A DNA stretch of 64,000 nucleotides, from NCBI RefSeq assembly GCF_014207705.1, contig NZ_JACHIU010000001.1, forward strand, positions 2,286,501 to 2,350,500, written 5' to 3'. Below are positions 7,354-58,717 of the stretch, piece after piece. Below the pieces are notes generated by a model, which did no database searches, had not been told where the DNA came from, and saw only the letters and a program-made list of their open reading frames with translations. Source of the stretch: Sphaerisporangium rubeum (GTDB lineage: Bacteria; Actinomycetota; Actinomycetes; Streptosporangiales; Streptosporangiaceae). Every line of letters begins with the position of its first letter. The first letter of the stretch is position 1. Made by a program: the position numbers and the translations under genes.

Positions 7354-7591
7354 ATGAATCAGTCATAAGGGTTGCTTTCGGGTATCGGTGACCCGCTTCC
7401 GTACGCACTACTGTTCCGGTCGGCCTAGGGTGGAGGGGCAACCGCCGTGAGGCGGCCGTAAGGACTGCGGGGTCATGCCACAATGCTGGGCAGGTACGTC
7501 GCGGTTCGCACGGCCCACCACCGAAAAGAAGCAAGCGCCCCTAGCGGGCACCTGGGTCCATTCTCACCATGCGTTCGTTCGAGAGGTGTTC

Positions 7592-9337
<1,746 letters not shown>

Positions 9338-9463
9338 CCCACCCCGGTGGCCACCACCCCACCCACCCCAAGGTGGCCACCACCCCCAACCAGCCCGGCT
9401 CCACCACCCTCGCATCCACATGCGGCCAGCCGCCACTGGCCCATGATGCGGGCCGCCCTCGTA

Positions 9464-9800
9464 GGTCCATGGCGCGGGCCGGCAGTTTAGGTCCGTGGTG
9501 CGGGCCGGCAGTTTAGGTCCGTGGTGCCGGTCGTCTAGGTCCGTGGTGCGGGCCGGCCGCTATCGGCCGTGGCGCGGGCCGGCCGTTTAGGTCCGTGGTG
9601 CCGGCCGCTACCGGCCGTGGTGCGGGCCGGCCGCTACCGGCCGTGGTGCGGGTCGGCCGTTTTGGTTCGTGGCGCGTGCCGGCCGTCATTCGTCCATGGT
9701 GCGGACCGGCCGTTTTGATTCGTAGTCGGGTGGGCCCTTCGGTCCGTGGCGCGGATCGACAGTTTTGGTCCATGATGCCGGCCAGCCGCCACTGGCCCTT
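9464..9800. repeat. Degenerate 26-base tandem array
   Basis: The unit begins GGTCCGTGGTGCGGGCCGG and ends in AGTTTA or a variant. Copies start at 9464, 9490 and 9516 with a period of 26, then continue with length changes and substitutions (GGCCGTGGTGCGGGCCGGCC, GGTTCGTGGCGCGTGCCGG) for roughly a dozen copies. Copies are purer at the left end and decay rightwards. No unique spacers separate the units, so this is not a CRISPR array. Confidence 0.75.
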
Positions 9801-9803
9801 GGC

Positions 9804-10640
9804 GCGAGCCAGCGGTCGCCAGTTCCTGGCGCGATGACCTCTCCGTGTGTGCCGTCGGCACGCTCTCGACTGGCGCCGACGCGGTGGGTTGCGGTGCGGT
9901 GAATCCGGCGCCATCGTACGGTGGTCCGCCGGTCGGTGGTGGCCGGGTCGGTCCTGGACGGCCGATGTGGGACACGGCGGTTACCCGCTTGCTCGTGATG
10001 GTGAAACGAGGTGGTCAGTGCGACCAGGTCACTGCGCGGTGATCTCTCTTTGCCGTACGTCGAACCCACTGGATAGAACACACGATTCCCGTCACGCATA
10101 TGGCGTCCCGTCACGCATATGGCGCGAGCCAGCGGTCGCCGATTCCTGGCGCGATGGCCTTTCCCTGTCGTGCCGTCGGTACGTTCTCGATTGGCGCCGA
10201 GGCGGTGGGTTGTGGTGCGGTGAGTTCGGCGCCATCGTACGGTGGTCCGCCGGTCTGTGGTGGCCGGGTCGGTCCTGGACGATCGGTGTGGGACACACGG
10301 CGGTTACCTGATCGCTTGTGACGGTGAAACGCGGTGGTCAGTGGACTATGTCACTGCGCGATGACCTTTTCGTGTCGTGCCGTCGGCGCGTTCTCGATTG
10401 GCGCCGAGGCGGTGGGTCGTGGTGCGGTGAATTCGGCGCCATCGTACGGTGGTCCGCCGGTCTGTGGTGGCCGGGTCGGTCCTGGACGGTCGATGTGGGA
10501 CACACGGCGGTTACCCGCTTGCTCGTGAGGGTGAAACGGGGTGGTCAGTGCGACCAGGTCACTGCGCGGTGATCTCTGTTTGCCGTACGTCGAACCCACT
10601 GGATAGAACACACGATTCCGGTCATTGCATGACGGCCCGA
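9804..10640 (+). repeat. Three tandem copies of a long intergenic repeat
   Basis: Each copy contains a 63-base core with two GGCGCC sites exactly 35 bases apart (cores at 9872-9934, 10193-10255 and 10400-10462). The copies also share the left flank (GTGCCGTCGG..CG.TCTCGA) and a right flank GTCGGTCCTGGAC. Copies 1 and 3 share a further 100-base tail, about 9990-10087 and 10530-10620, including CGTACGTCGAACCCACTGG. Copy 2 lacks most of it, so periods are 321 and 207 bases. A short direct repeat CCCGTCACGCATATGGCG occurs twice at the end of copy 1 (about 10,087-10,125). Confidence 0.85.
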
Positions 10641-10867
10641 AGCCGCCGTACGGGCCTTGACCAATGCGGCAATTCCCATACCCCCTCCAAAGCCCTCTCG
10701 GCAATCGTCTTGAAGGCCGCTGACCGGCGGATCATCACTCCAACACGCCGGAGGCCACCCACTACGTCCCGAGGGGGATCGTGTTCCTGACCAGCAGGTC
10801 ACAAGCGTCTACCCTTGGCAGGCGGCCCAGCTCACAATGGCCGTGAGCGTCCGACGTGCCGACGACT

Positions 10868-10930
10868 GACCGGTGAGCCGCCGTACCGCGGCGCCGGAAC
10901 CACCGCACCACACCCCACCGCGTCGGCGCC
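10868..10930 (-). repeat. Inverted copy of the GGCGCC-35 dispersed repeat
   Basis: Read on the minus strand this has the same order as the tandem copies: GGCGCCGACGCGGTGGGG, then GTGGTGCGG, then a second GGCGCC 35 bases after the first (10,925-10,930 and 10,890-10,895), then TACGG and CCGGTC. Flanks differ from the three direct copies, so the 63-base core is the conserved unit. Confidence 0.8.
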
Positions 10931-11016
10931 AAAACCAGCACACCGACGTGACGGTGCGGAAGGTCCGCCGAGACCGCTCCAAACCCCGGCTCCGTGGGGG
11001 CCACCACGGGCAAGGC

Positions 11017-11306
11017 GGTGCTTGGATCGCCACGAGCAGGACGGTGCTTGTGGTCGCCACGAGCGACGCGGTGCCTGTGGCCGCCACGGCAACGCGGTGT
11101 GTGTGGTCGCCACGGCAACGCGGTGTGTGTGGTCGCCACGAGTAGGACGGTGCTTGTAGTCGCCACGGCAACGTGGTGTGTGTGGTCGCCAGGGGTAAGG
11201 CGGTGCTTGGGTCGACAGGAGTGGGACGGTGCTTGGGGTCGCTGCGGGCGACGTGGTGTGTGTGGTCGCCGCGGGTAGGTGGTGTGATTGATCGGCACGG
11301 GCAGGT
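11017..11306. repeat. 26/27-base tandem array (minisatellite)
   Basis: Eleven units begin with GGTG at 11,017, 11,043, 11,070, 11,096, 11,122, 11,149, 11,175, 11,202, 11,228, 11,255 and 11,281, giving periods of 26 and 27 in near alternation. The unit reads GGTGTGTGTGGTCGCCACGG plus a variable end such as CAACGC or AGTAGGAC. It has no clear similarity to the array at 9464-9800 beyond its length. Confidence 0.85.
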
Positions 11307-11340
11307 GTCGTCGGTCGCTGGGTAGTTGGTGGTTCTTAGC

Positions 11341-11494
11341 GGGGGATTGATGGAGATTTGGGGGGGTTCTGGGGGGTGGGTGGTGGAGGAGGTGGGGGTG
11401 AGGGTGATTGATTTGGGGTGGTGAGGGTGGGTTAGGGGGGCTTGGGGGTTGGGAGGTGGTGGGGGAGGGTTGACGCGGGGGTTCGGACTGGGGG
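11341..11494 (+). other. G-rich tract with G-quadruplex potential
   Basis: The plus strand carries more than ten runs of three to seven G within 150 bases, with almost no C before 11,440. Short loops between runs (for example GGGGGGTGGGTGG) fit the usual G-quadruplex pattern. It ends about 60 bases before the gene at 11,556, so it sits in or near that gene's promoter region. Confidence 0.6.
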
Positions 11495-11542
11495 TTAACA
11501 TGGCCGTAACCCTCCGGTAGCGCCGTAAGTCTTGACGTTTTC

Positions 11543-11548
11543 TAGGCT
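11543..11548 (+). promoter_or_regulatory. Candidate -10 element of a leaderless promoter
   Basis: TAGGCT begins 13 bases before the ATG at 11,556 and matches the actinobacterial TANNNT -10 pattern. Its position puts transcription start on or next to the ATG, and there is no Shine-Dalgarno sequence. No good -35 is visible. Confidence 0.45.
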
Positions 11549-11555
11549 CCGCGCC

Positions 11556-12524
11556 ATGGGTGTGATCGAAGTGGATCGGGCTCGTGCTCGGGGGCCACGA
11601 CTGATCGCAGGCCGTCCGTGGACGGACGACGTGCTCGACGAGGCCGTGCATGCCCTAGGGCGTGGGCACCTCGAATACGCCCTTCCCGCTCTCGTCGGTT
11701 CCCGGGGGGACCACGAGGTGCGCGCTCTACGTGTGGAGGCGCTGGGAAGGGCCGCCGTGGGTCTCACCGGGGGCATCGAGGCCCTGTTGTCGCGAGACCG
11801 AGCCAATCCCGATCTGTGGCTGTGGCTGGCCCGGGTCCGTATCGAAGAGGCCTGGCACGTCAAACCGGACGTGCGCGCGCGGGCCGTGCAGGCCGACCGG
11901 TTACAGATGTACCAGCGTGCCATGGAGTCCGCGAGAACGCCGCTGCACACCGCGGCGCGGCTCGCGCCGGACGATCCGGTGCCGTGGATCTGCCTGTTGT
12001 GGATGGCCATCGGCCTGGAGTGGCCGAGGCGGGAACGCGACGAGATCTACGAGGAAGCCATGGCCCGCGCGCCGCGTCTGTACGCGACCGCCGTGGCCCG
12101 CCTCGTCAGCCTGTCGCCGGGCTGGGGCGGCACGACCCAGGAGATGCTGGCCTTCGCCCGCGCCTCCGCGACCCGGGCCCGCACCGGTGACCCGATGTCG
12201 GCGTTGCTGCCGCTGGCCTACTTCGAGTACATGTCCGCCGAGCGGGTGAGCCGGTCGCGATTATGGGATTCGTTCGAGGTGCAGCGGGAGCTCACCGTGG
12301 CGGCCGGCCTGTGGCACGACGGCCGCGGCGGCCCCCCGCACCCGAGGGCCGTGGAGGCGCACAACGCGTTCGGCGCGGCGTTCTACCTGGCCGACATGCG
12401 CCGGCCCGCTCGCGGTCACCTTTCCCGCACGGCCGGTAGATTCAGCACTCTGCCGTGGTCGCATCTCGGTGACCCGGCGAAGGAGTACGGCAAGGCCTGC
12501 TCGCGACTGAACATCACGAACTGA
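11556..12524 (+). CDS. Conserved helical protein of unknown function
   Basis: The 322-residue soluble protein is rich in Ala, Arg, Leu and Trp. It reads like a set of helical hairpins (ALVGSRGDHEVRALRVEALG; WLWLARVRIEEAW; LHTAARLAPDDPVPWICLL; RDEIYEEAMARAPRLY), which suggests a TPR- or DUF4034-like alpha-solenoid. No catalytic motif is visible, so I assign no function. The ATG at 11,556 is preferred because a TAGGCT element lies at leaderless spacing; a TTG at 11,532 would extend the frame by 8 codons. Its 3' end overlaps that of yaaA by 11 bases on the opposite strand. Confidence 0.75.
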   Translation: MGVIEVDRARARGPRLIAGRPWTDDVLDEAVHALGRGHLEYALPALVGSRGDHEVRALRVEALGRAAVGLTGGIEALLSRDRANPDLWLWLARVRIEEAWHVKPDVRARAVQADRLQMYQRAMESARTPLHTAARLAPDDPVPWICLLWMAIGLEWPRRERDEIYEEAMARAPRLYATAVARLVSLSPGWGGTTQEMLAFARASATRARTGDPMSALLPLAYFEYMSAERVSRSRLWDSFEVQRELTVAAGLWHDGRGGPPHPRAVEAHNAFGAAFYLADMRRPARGHLSRTAGRFSTLPWSHLGDPAKEYGKACSRLNITN

Positions 12525-25076: not shown

Positions 25077-25970
25077 TCAAAGACGGGGACGTGCGCCGAG
25101 GTTGCCGATGGCCTTGGCGGCCAAGGCGTTGCCGGCGGCGAGCGCGTCGGCGGGCTGTTTGCCTTCCAGCCAGGGCTGGAGGAAGCCCGCGGCGAACGCG
25201 TCGCCGGCACCGGTGCCGTCCACCACACGCTCGATGTGGTCGGCCGGGACCCGCACCGGCTCGGGCCGGTTGTTGGTGTACCAGAGCGCGCCTTCGGCAC
25301 CCATCTTGATCACGACCTGGGGGAACCAGGCGGTGAGCACCTTGGCGGCGGAGGCGGGGTCGTCGCGGCCGGTGAGCACCTTGGCCTGGGCCTCGTTGAG
25401 CAGCAGCAGCTTGGCGCTCTGCGTCCACTCCAGGAAGGCTTCGGCGCCGGTGCGCTCAAGTGGCGCGGCGGAGGCGCAGTCGACCGAGATGGACATGCCG
25501 GCCCGGCGTGCGAGCTCCAGTGCGGCGAGCCCGGCGTCGCGGGAGCCGTCGTTGAGCAACGTGTATCCCGAGACGTGCAGATGGCCACCTTGCATGAACA
25601 GGTCGCGCGGCAGGTCGTCGGGGGAGAGCGCCGCGTTGGCGCCGGGGTCGGAGAGCAGGGTGCGCTCACCCTTGTGGGTGACCAGCACCACGCAGGTGCC
25701 GGTGGGACGCTCGGGATCCATCACCAGACGGGCGTCGACGCCGTACCCCATCAGCTCCATGTCCCGGTTGCGGCCCGTGATGTCGGCGCCGCGGCGGCCC
25801 ACGAAGGCGACTTCCGCGCCTTCGACGGCCAGCCAGGAGGCGATGTTGGCCCCGGAGCCGCCACCGTGCATGGTGACGACGGCCGGAGTGTCGCTCGCCC
25901 GGGCGAGGGGGTAGCGGGCGCGTGCGACCGCATCGGTCATCAGATCGCCCACCACGACAACCCGCGTCAT
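25077..25970 (-). CDS. PfkB-family carbohydrate/nucleoside kinase
   Basis: The 297-residue cytosolic enzyme should phosphorylate a sugar or nucleoside with ATP. The N-terminal GGGSGANIASWLA glycine motif binds the sugar, and the C-terminal DGTGAGDAF (about residues 251-259) carries the catalytic Asp257 and anion hole. LLLNEAQAKVLTGRDD and VIKMGAEGALW also match ribokinase-type enzymes. Substrate cannot be decided; it lacks a sugar transporter neighbour. It is divergent from the GNAT/acyl-CoA synthetase gene with 111 bases between. Confidence 0.9.
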   Translation of the reverse strand: MTRVVVVGDLMTDAVARARYPLARASDTPAVVTMHGGGSGANIASWLAVEGAEVAFVGRRGADITGRNRDMELMGYGVDARLVMDPERPTGTCVVLVTHKGERTLLSDPGANAALSPDDLPRDLFMQGGHLHVSGYTLLNDGSRDAGLAALELARRAGMSISVDCASAAPLERTGAEAFLEWTQSAKLLLLNEAQAKVLTGRDDPASAAKVLTAWFPQVVIKMGAEGALWYTNNRPEPVRVPADHIERVVDGTGAGDAFAAGFLQPWLEGKQPADALAAGNALAAKAIGNLGARPRL

Positions 25971-55296: not shown

Positions 55297-55715
55297 CCCC
55301 ACCCACCCTCGCCTCCGGGCTGTCCGGCTGGTCAAAGGGTCACAACCCACCCACAGCACCTCACTCAGTGCACCTCACTGCACCTGACTCACTCGATCTC
55401 ACTCTCTTGCACCCCACTCACCTGGCCTCTGAGGTGTGCTGGTCGAAGGGCCACAACCCACTCCACCCACTGCACTCCACCACCGCGGCAACCGAACTTC
55501 TCCGTTTCGGTCCAGCAGCGACGCTTTCCGGCGCCGACGCGGTGGGAAGTGGTACGGCGAAATCGGCGCCGCCTTACGGTGACCGGCCGGTGGAGGCGGA
55601 CCTCAGGGCGGTTTTGACGTGCGGGAGACTCGTCCGCGACACTGCGCGGGACACACGGTGAGTGGCGAAGGGGAAAGACTCCGGTGCACAGCTTCATCCT
55701 CGGCGAGGCCGCCGT
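55297..55715. other. Intergenic region with repeats
   Basis: This gap holds no supported gene. It contains an imperfect direct repeat of CTGGTCAAAGGGTCACAACC (55,331 and, as CTGGTCGAAGGGCCACAACC, about 55,439). A copy of the GGCGCC-35 dispersed repeat also lies here. Confidence 0.5.
55530..55592 (+). repeat. Fourth direct copy of the GGCGCC-35 dispersed repeat
   Basis: GGCGCCGACGCGGTGGGA at 55,530 is followed by GTGGTACGGCGAA, a second GGCGCC at 55,565 (35 bases after the first), TACGGTGACC and GCCGGT. It is more diverged than the copies near 10 kb but keeps the spacing. It lies 45 kb away from them, upstream of the ROK gene. Confidence 0.75.
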
Positions 55716-56687
55716 ATGACCACCCATGTCGTGGCCCTGGACGTAGGCGGTACCTCGATGAAAGGCGGCCTGGTCACCGCCGGAGGCGACATCCTCCTCA
55801 CCGACCGCCGCCCCACCCCCCGCACCGAGGGCCCCGGCAAGGTCATCGCCACGATCCGTGAGTTCATCGCCGACCTCGCCGGCGCCGGCGAAACCCCTCC
55901 GACCGCCGTAGGCGTCGTGGTCCCCGGCCCCGTATCCGACAACACCGCCGTCTACTCCTCCAACATCGGCTGGCGCGACGTCCCCGCATCGGACTTCAAC
56001 CCGTTGGACGTCCCGATCCGCCTGGGCCACGACGTCCGCTCGGCCGGCCTCGCGGAGAGCGTCCTAGGCGCCGCACGCCACCAGCAGGACTTCCTCTTCC
56101 TCTCCATAGGCACCGGCATCGCCGGCGCCATGATCCTGAACAACACCCCCTACCCCGGCGCCACCGGCTGGAGCGGCGAGATCGGCCACATCCCCGTCTT
56201 CCCCACCGGCGAACAATGCGCCTGCGGCCAGACCGGCTGCCTGGAAACCTACGCCTCCGCCGCCTCCATAGCCCGCCGCTACACCGAGTCCCTGACCAGA
56301 GCCAGCTCCATCACCCCCACCCCGGCCCCCGCCACCCCACCCACCGCCGAGGACGTCATCACCCGAGCCGAACGCGGCGACCCCCAAGCCACCGAGGTGT
56401 GGAACGAAGCCCTGGAAGCCCTGACCCTGGCCCTGGCCACCTACACCCTCCTCCTGGACCCCACCTCCATCGTCCTCGGCGGCGGCCTGTCCCAAGCAGG
56501 CCCAACCCTGAGCACCCCCGTGGCCGAACGCCTCCAACGCAAACTCACCTGGCGCACCGCCCCCCAGATCCACCACACCCTCCTCGGCACCAACGCCGGC
56601 ATGCTAGGCGCCGCCCTCCTGGCTTGGAAATCGACACAACCCCCCACCCCACCTCTCGATGTGCCCACCCACCCACCGGTACCGTAA
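55716..56687 (+). CDS. ROK-family sugar kinase or regulator-like protein
   Basis: The 323-residue protein has the ROK fold: ATP-binding ALDVGGTSMKGGLV at the start, the sugar/zinc motif GEIGHIPVFPTGEQCACG followed by QTGCLE, and VLGGGLSQAG near the end. No N-terminal winged helix is present, so it should be a kinase of glucose, N-acetylglucosamine or a similar sugar rather than a repressor. The C-terminal half uses unusually long runs of C. The ATG at 55,716 is the family-like start. Confidence 0.9.
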   Translation: MTTHVVALDVGGTSMKGGLVTAGGDILLTDRRPTPRTEGPGKVIATIREFIADLAGAGETPPTAVGVVVPGPVSDNTAVYSSNIGWRDVPASDFNPLDVPIRLGHDVRSAGLAESVLGAARHQQDFLFLSIGTGIAGAMILNNTPYPGATGWSGEIGHIPVFPTGEQCACGQTGCLETYASAASIARRYTESLTRASSITPTPAPATPPTAEDVITRAERGDPQATEVWNEALEALTLALATYTLLLDPTSIVLGGGLSQAGPTLSTPVAERLQRKLTWRTAPQIHHTLLGTNAGMLGAALLAWKSTQPPTPPLDVPTHPPVP

Positions 56688-56706: not shown

Positions 56707-56781
56707 GGGCGCTTAGCTCAGCGGTAGAGCACTCGCCTTACAAGCGAGGGGTCACTGGTTCGAACCCAGTAGCGCCCACCA
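56707..56781 (+). tRNA. tRNA-Val (anticodon UAC)
   Basis: The 75-base sequence folds as a cloverleaf: acceptor GGGCGCT pairs with AGCGCCC, the D arm is GCTCAGCGGTAGAGC, the anticodon stem CTCGC/GCGAG holds loop CTTACAA with anticodon TAC, and the T arm is CTGGTTCGAACCCAG. CCA is encoded at 56,779-56,781. It reads GUA/GUG valine codons. Confidence 0.96.
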
Positions 56782-58079: not shown

Positions 58080-58717
58080 ATATGTCTCTCCAGCACTCCG
58101 TGCTCGTGGTAAGCCGATGGTGGGGTCATCTTCCCGCACAGATCATCAGGATGGCGTCGAATCCGCGGAGATATCTCTATCCGTTAAGTCAGATATACGG
58201 CGTGATAAGGGGGCCAAAGCGACAATTCTGACTATAAATCGTTTTCCAATATGGCCAGGATTGAGGCTTTTATCGTGTCGGTCGTTGATCATCCCTGGAG
58301 AGATGACAACCTGTCGACGGCGCGTGATGTGGGCTCTGGCACTGATTCCGTGAAGCGAGCCGCTTCAGTCGGCGAGGAGGACGCGTTTGCGCAGACGGCC
58401 GGGGTTGGCTCGGCCGTACATCTGGCGCTTGAGGGCCTTGACGCGATTGACGTGGCCGAACCGTGCCGGGTCGATGGAGACTCTGGTGTGCTCCAAGCTC
58501 CGTGGAGCTGGATCACTGGATTCGTGATGCCACGATGACCATGGTCTCGACCTCTATCGGGGTCGGCATGCCCACCGTCGGCACTCGGGCTCAGCTGAGT
58601 ACGCCGGGCCGGGTCTCGGAACACGGGGATTCCCTGTGGACGCAGATCGTGCACCGATCAGGTTTCCGGGCCGTGTCCGTCTGTATGTGTGAGATCGACT
58701 CACGAGAGGCTGGCACG
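58080..58717. other. Intergenic region with IS remnant, lower GC
   Basis: About 58,140-58,320 is clearly less GC-rich than the genome (ACTATAAATCGTTTTCCAAT, about 58,230) and may be of foreign origin or promoter DNA. A transposase tail follows. I see no intact gene in the 638 bases. Confidence 0.5.
58365..58475 (-). mobile_element. Transposase 3' remnant (ISL3-like C-terminus)
   Basis: Read on the minus strand the segment encodes ARFGHVNRVKALKRQMYG followed by RANPGRLRKRVLLAD and a stop. The pattern VNRxKxxKRQMYGRAxxxLLRKRVLL is typical of the end of ISL3-family and related transposases. The rest of the gene is absent, so this is an inactive fragment; inverted repeats were not found. Confidence 0.65.

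Follow-up and report, generated by a model that had tools for sequence, protein, structure and literature searches.

A polar, mostly extragenic repeat family in Sphaerisporangium and its relatives, with locus-specific minisatellites on its 5' side

What is the short sequence, built around two GGCGCC sites, that recurs four times behind a sigma-factor gene of Sphaerisporangium rubeum, and why does it stand there? Sphaerisporangium is a soil actinomycete, and the window considered here, that is the whole stretch of DNA that was analysed, comprises 64,000 nucleotides of the S. rubeum genome. The element copies and their surroundings in the window are listed below, the array coordinates being conversions of element-relative output.

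7475..9337, + strand: sigma-70 gene with regions 1.1 to 4, of the principal-sigma type; copies 1-3 lie at its 3' end
9338..11531: spacer from the sigma gene to the next called gene, about 2.2 kb, with four elements and two arrays
9464..9788, + strand: 26-bp tandem array of about 12.8 copies with 68% matches (Tandem Repeats Finder), 5' of copy 1
9866..9932, + strand: element copy 1, core start 9872, PWM score 76.7
10187..10253, + strand: element copy 2, core start 10193, PWM score 73.1
10394..10460, + strand: element copy 3, core start 10400, PWM score 79.8
10870..10936, - strand: element copy 4, inverted, core start 10930 and reading leftward, PWM score 68.5
11004..11270, - strand: second 26-bp array of about 10 copies, 5' of the inverted copy 4
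11532..12524, + strand: next gene rightward, no Pfam match
55347..55403, + strand: short 24-bp array of 2.4 copies, 5' of copy 5
55524..55590, + strand: element copy 5, core start 55530, PWM score 81.8, standing alone
55662..56687, + strand: gene 3' of copy 5, putatively ROK-kinase-like by a motif in its sequence

Shortly 3' of the last gene lies a tRNA gene (56707-56778, + strand), and a CRISPR-DR12 direct repeat at 58281-58310 (- strand; 37.7 bits against a gathering score of 37) may mark a CRISPR array. These two are the only Rfam matches above the gathering score in the window, and no Rfam family was found for the element.

A preliminary description of this DNA had reported five copies with a fixed internal geometry, and all five are where it placed them (GGCGCC pairs at 9872, 10193 and 10400 on the + strand, at 10890-10930 on the - strand and at 55530 on the + strand). 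The starts of the two GGCGCC sites are exactly 35 bases apart in 5/5 copies, and no other pairs with this spacing occur in the window, shuffled sequences giving a mean of 0.25 and 0/100 of them reaching five. The TACGG said to follow the second site is indeed present in all five copies, after a 4-base gap, but this detail is not general, because copies outside the window mostly have a gap of 3 or 4 bases, and in some of them the box reads TGCGG. The shared flanks of the three direct copies were also recovered, as a 195-nt family at 69-92% and a 123-nt pair at 97%.

Beyond the window, the alignment of 74 copies delimits a conserved unit from about -6 to +61, beyond which the sequence is unconserved except for a weak richness in C at about -30 to -20. 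The element, with a core of about 63 bp, reads GGCGCCG-acGCGGYGGGAcGtGGTRCGGYGAATcCGGCGCC-GtCGTACGGYGGccnaCCGG, with the GGCGCC sites at +0 and +35. It thus consists of two GGCGCC palindromes and three RCGGYG boxes that point in the same direction, and is therefore polar. Each group of genomes has its own consensus, while the GGCGCC pair and most RCGGYG positions are kept between groups (across-group consensus GGCGCCGnnnCGGYGRGannGnGGTRCGGYGAnnnCGGCGCC...TACGG). In another genus, g58, the spacing is 36 bases in 25/28 copies, and GTACGGCG directly follows the first GGCGCC in 21/28 copies, both by-eye counts. The alignments were hand-picked, A1 holding 73 of the 115 copies listed and A2 118 of 189, with some weak or partial rows omitted. 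GGCGCC is not under-represented in the 653 kb surveyed (1059 sites against 934 expected, elements included), and the element was rejected as a rare restriction site on this ground.

What is conserved appears to be the sequence rather than a fold. A transcribed structure had been among the suggestions of the preliminary description, and it found no support: on neither strand does the RNA fold better than shuffled sequence (z about -0.5 in each case), the mean stem probability is 0.21, the GGCGCC stem is rarely preferred (probability above 0.5 in 22/112), and 0/9 predicted pairs show compensatory change. The seven GGCGCCG/CGGCGCC pairs are each possible in 117-118/118 sequences, wobbles included, and covariation is not seen because both stem arms are near-invariant. 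Since neither an RNA fold nor compensatory change was found, recognition of the sequence itself, most simply by a protein, is the more natural assumption; a regulator or nucleoid-protein site, as also suggested earlier, would fit conservation at this level.

The family is dispersed, as had been claimed, and reaches beyond one genus. The sequence-only profile R1 (E<=1e-5) finds 118 copies in the 7.5 Mb of the S. rubeum genome, and a 41-base core with at most 3 mismatches finds 76 places, 38 per strand, whereas its reversed control finds 0. Exact-pattern matches in the collection of named genomes comprise 22 stretches, all in Sphaerisporangium records, and a pattern search matches 9/41 genomes, again all Sphaerisporangium. 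With profiles, related copies appear in 27/200 genomes of the family, representing 7/68 genera, and in 3/296 genomes of a class-wide sample (E<=1e-6), all three in the same family; since about 25 candidates per genome were scored in the family search and 17 in the class search, both with stricter filters, these copy numbers are lower bounds from which weak copies may be missing. Hits number 124 in genome G003 and 117 in G010, and the two g58 genomes hold 24 and 25 copies at E<=1e-4. One Sphaerisporangium genome, G004 (99% complete, in about 170 contigs), holds 0 copies at E<=1e-5 and so offers a natural contrast in looking for a protein partner. Copies also occur in clusters of 2-4 within the S. 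rubeum genome. Tandem duplications with units of 179, 143 and 161 bp, in which the element and its 5' flank are repeated 3-4 times in a row, were observed at G000:C1:1325825-1326425, 4128377-4128724 and 3457669-3458050. At six S. corydalis loci (L090, L091, L094, L095, L096 and L097) a second dispersed repeat, starting AAAGGTCCTCGCCTTCGGCTCGGGCAGT (by eye), sits at or near the 3' edge of the element, and many S. corydalis copies are accompanied by it. A plasmid origin was discarded, copy 1 with its flanks (101 bases) having no match among 72,556 plasmids. No description of the element family was found in the open-access literature searched.

The position of the copies relative to genes is the first line of evidence on what the element may do. 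Gene calls were made with our own codon-model script over the 653 kb around 85 copies from the 41-base core search, which fall into 61 loci when copies less than 2 kb apart are merged; the flank and array statistics given further below for S. rubeum cover these 85 of the 118 copies. The sequence had been described as intergenic, and 80/85 copies are clear of called genes, with 2 inside a gene and 3 overlapping one by a few bases. Descent from one coding gene, the alternative then considered, was rejected on the same count; the open reading frames of the window do allow a like reading of the three direct copies. By context, 38 of the 85 copies lie between convergent genes, 32 in tandem regions co-oriented with them, 8 in tandem regions anti-oriented, 5 between divergent genes and 2 in a called gene. 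The 66 oriented loci are distributed alike (30 convergent, 22 tandem co-oriented, 8 tandem anti-oriented, 4 divergent and 2 unclassified), so that at 52/64 classifiable loci the element is 3' of a gene reading towards it, and 12/64 have no co-directed upstream gene. This placement amounts to an avoidance of divergent regions together with a preference for the sense orientation in tandem regions (22 vs 8, p=0.016). At all 52 co-directed loci the stop codon of the upstream gene keeps a distance of at least 54 bp, and at 21/22 tandem co-oriented loci at least 73 bp separate the element from the start codon that follows. At 14/30 convergent loci the 3' edge of the element has the stop codon of the opposing gene no more than 10 bp away. 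A minimum leader length is not general, because in g58 the upstream stop comes as near as 25 bp. The ten upstream genes examined are varied chromosomal genes.

A co-directed upstream gene is likewise common in relatives. It is present for 22/27 copies in G003, 22/27 in S. corydalis and 20/31 in G010, these being counts of copies from 30 of the 124 hits in G003, 30 of the 117 in G010 and the 19 S. corydalis stretches among the 22 with exact-pattern matches; G010 has the weakest upstream context, 7/31 of its copies being divergent. In g58 the figure is 23/28, for 28 of the 30 loci taken from 49 matches in two genomes, L302 and L307 having been dropped as the pattern had matched the wrong GGCGCC pair.

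The second line of evidence is base composition. On the sense strand, the 5' flank is rich in C and poor in G over several hundred bases, and the sequence becomes neutral or G-rich past the element. Across 61 loci, the C>G skew is 0.12-0.22 from -500 to -35 and peaks at -35 to -15 (C 50%, G 21.5%, skew 0.40), where a C-rich, G-poor tract lies at about -30 to -15. In the 128 control 3' flanks, which have no element, the skew is 0.15 over the first 25 bases and 0.05 at most further on. At the element loci the skew reaches 0.38 in the first 25 bases past the upstream stop and, because it is strongest there, it may be a property of these 3' UTRs and not of the element. Taken singly, 42/57 loci have more C than G, 36 of them with a skew above 0.1, while 15/57 show no such excess and 7 lie below -0.1; the cluster in the window is itself slightly negative (-0.076). 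The same C>G tendency is found in all five groups, in a composition that includes coding bases, with G010 flat in one bin (-60 to -45). In PMC12207403, rut sites are C-rich, G-poor stretches of about 70-80 nt, Rho is perhaps used more often in the GC-rich Streptomyces, and strong U-tracts are rare there. By that account, the composition of the 5' flank is the one expected for a stretch on which Rho loads (PMC12207403).

The third line of evidence, absent from the earlier note as were the gene-end placement and the C-rich 5' flank, is the presence of locus-specific minisatellites on the 5' side of the element. Among loci with at least 100 intergenic bases, and excluding arrays whose unit contains the element, an array lies within 200 bp on the 5' side at 30/50 loci and on the 3' side at 2/31 (Fisher 1.2e-6), against 15.6% of random 200-bp segments in element-free regions, which belong to the same stretches and in which decayed copies may lie hidden. 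Where both sides are roomy (28 loci), 13 have an array only 5', 0 only 3', 2 on both sides and 13 on neither. When arrays whose unit contains the element are included, 48% of the intergenic bases at -200 to -101 fall inside arrays, compared with 6.5% in element-free intergenic regions and about 14-20% over the first 300 bases from the element start. Several arrays extend from directly behind the stop codon of the upstream gene to a point 5-60 bp short of the element. Their units, of 14-89 bp, are unrelated between loci, with 0/435 pairs alike at E<=1e-3 among 30 array loci. Elements are better conserved at loci with arrays than at loci without (median score 78.0 vs 65.65, p=0.004). The skew is no stronger inside arrays than outside (0.146 vs 0.202), so that selection of the arrays as rut sites is not obvious. 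Outside S. rubeum the same side is favoured, G003 being the sole other group in which this is significant singly (5' 17/25 vs 3' 2/13, p=0.005). The counts are 9/29 vs 2/19 in G010 (p=0.16), 9/28 vs 3/27 in S. corydalis (p=0.10) and 5/16 vs 1/12 in g58 (p=0.20), and the four groups pooled give p=5e-5 with an odds ratio of 5.2. At the g58 loci L306, L308 and L310, the 5' arrays have a 19-bp unit that contains the TACGGCG box of the element itself.

The best reading of these data is that the element is directional, mostly extragenic, and marks candidate 3' ends of transcription units. Going further, we tentatively propose, as quite possible though still short of probable, a putative transcription-end element that is recognised by a protein and perhaps assisted by Rho, at which a stalled complex promotes tandem duplication. 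In such a model, a sequence-specific protein would bind the core, as DNA or as nascent RNA, and would stop RNA polymerase arriving from the upstream gene, while Rho would load on the C-rich 3' UTR; transcription would thus be prevented from entering the gene that follows or faces it. Tandem duplication just behind the stalled complex would be promoted by that complex, or by a nick or slippage during synthesis at its 5' edge, and each site would in this way come to have an array of its own. A candidate binding protein has to be assumed, because a Rho terminator needs no conserved 63-bp core; to our knowledge, neither such a core nor a dispersed family is a property of rut sites. The likeness to Rho-dependent terminators, as these are defined in PMC12207403, lies in a C-rich, G-poor stretch past the gene followed by a stop zone. 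Against the termination reading, placement at 3' ends is also what purifying selection leaves of any neutral insert.

The latter argument leads to the main rival, a selfish, non-autonomous mobile repeat of the MITE or REP kind with no host function, which we consider possible but doubtful. Its copies would survive at gene ends as insertion into genes or promoters is harmful, and the arrays would be scars of replication or co-inserted junk. High copy number, a separate consensus in each group, the avoidance of divergent regions and the tandem copies all agree with it, and so does comparison with relatives, the check that had been proposed on sites lacking the element. At ten syntenic sites (those of 16 down-gene-end query sites that have a syntenic upstream gene), the element is missing in 30/31 species comparisons, and the gene gap has a median of 63 bp at the empty sites, vs 267.5 bp at the same sites in S. 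rubeum; a tandem array is present in 4/30 of the empty gaps. The insert behind the sigma gene is missing in 10/10 relatives, in which the nearest matched gene edge comes 128-252 bases on, vs 2.2 kb here, with no element in the 1.5 kb past the sigma gene and no array between it and the next matched gene.

Other findings count against a selfish repeat, beginning with the sites common to several species. Of 60 stretches examined in relatives, 4 hold a copy above a score of 14. The copy at 25,628 is found in the same place in G001, a weak copy in G008 follows the same gene as that at 1,346,848, and a weak copy in G002 lies in the intergenic region of 6,271,641. At 2,061,995 a G010 copy is near the gap, not in it, and a G003 copy is near too; at 5,343,185 a decayed copy was seen by eye in G008. 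The family is therefore old yet turning over, with some sites common to species and most syntenic sites empty. At L034 (in G007) and L037, a copy lies between the same gene pair, whose orthologues in S. rubeum are about 2.6-4.3 kb from a copy of the element.

Nor were the usual signs of transposition recovered. There is no target-site duplication, the agreement of flank k-mers (k=3-10) staying within the permuted maxima over 61 loci and 30 permutations, and the consensus examined by eye has no clear terminal inverted repeats, its ends sharing at most CCGG. The Y1/RAYT transposase domain PF01797, which represents the one transposase class searched for across genomes, has no match in the S. rubeum genome (G000), G002, G008 and G010, and 7/11 genomes of the genus do match it (G001, G003, G004, G005, G006, G007 and G009). 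In the copy-rich G003, however, the match consists of two fragments of 36 profile positions, whereas the copy-poor G004 and G005 have full-length matches. On this basis, mobilisation by a RAYT/IS200 transposase was rejected, as was a passenger transposase between paired copies, since none is encoded among the 10 genes between neighbouring copies; the 10 upstream genes include none either. Tandem co-orientation (22:8) and a C>G flank are not predicted for a selfish repeat. A non-autonomous mobile element, as suggested earlier, is possible in spite of these negative results.

Known bacterial repeats offer partial parallels. REP/BIME sequences, which go with RAYT proteins, are likewise short, extragenic, clustered and species-specific, often with more than 100 copies, and the roles suggested for them in PMC2817692 include protein binding and transcription termination. 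The S. rubeum element differs in having neither the conserved GT(A/G)G head of REP nor its form of an imperfect palindrome, 20-40 bp in size according to PMC3733652; further differences are the lack of a Y1 match in S. rubeum and the locus-specific minisatellites 5' of the element. BrickBuilt of Porphyromonas gingivalis is also an intergenic dispersed element with a minisatellite array, which according to PMC4596501 has one 23-nt unit common to its copies, and terminal inverted repeats. Here, in contrast, the array units differ by locus and lie outside the conserved core. The MIRU repeats of mycobacteria are actinobacterial and intergenic as well, and are associated with stop codons and tandem variation; they would be set apart from the present element by their sequence, their length and its separate polar core.

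A more radical alternative would make the element a polar array maker, in which the 63 bp drive repeated tandem duplication of the DNA on their 5' side, whatever its sequence, and each copy would come to have a minisatellite of its own at a gene end. We consider this rather unlikely; it would be a kind of genetic element without a description in the open-access literature searched.

Less probable again is a polar gene-end site to which a topoisomerase or a protein of chromosome architecture binds, and which would relieve supercoils behind converging transcription and whose breaks would lead to tandem duplications. BIME-gyrase sites have a comparable role, and conservation of sequence rather than structure, several boxes in the same direction, the preference for convergent over divergent regions and the clusters of 2-4 copies are consistent with it. 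The binding protein is purely hypothetical, however, and 118 sites in 7.5 Mb are few; there is no replication-strand bias beyond that of genes, and in the class-wide sample the element was not found outside the family, whereas gyrase is universal.

A polar replication barrier, at which forks would stop, slip and duplicate the DNA just replicated, appears very improbable. With the origin placed at dnaA and the terminus assumed opposite, 46/61 flank-studied loci are co-directional with replication, as this explanation expects, but the bias shrinks genome-wide to 60/92 oriented clusters on the leading strand, against a gene background of 327/569 (p=0.14), which also led to the rejection of KOPS-like replication polarity. 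Moreover, 5' arrays do not differ by replication direction (23/38 leading-oriented and 7/12 lagging-oriented loci, though 12 are few); a stall of sense-strand synthesis in either fork direction is conceivable. The fork barrier of yeast rDNA is a polar site that is bound by a protein where transcripts end and has tandem amplification next to it. The present element is unlike it in that its array side does not differ with fork direction.

Finally, a structured RNA or intrinsic terminator is hardly credible, for although the GGCGCC arms can pair in nearly every copy and the element is in sense orientation to transcription, the stable hairpin was rejected with no fold signal, covarying pair or Rfam match, and the consensus contains no T-tract.

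Should the element be the maker of the arrays, the family would show, as a natural experiment, how tandem duplication begins in bacteria, since a single conserved trigger would act on many unrelated sequences, on a fixed side, and orthologous sites that lack it could be compared. Should it be a transcription-end module, as we tentatively favour, high-GC actinomycetes would have in it a family of sequence-specific terminators. On either reading, the loci offer candidate variable markers, and the definite consensus a starting point for a search for the binding protein in this family.
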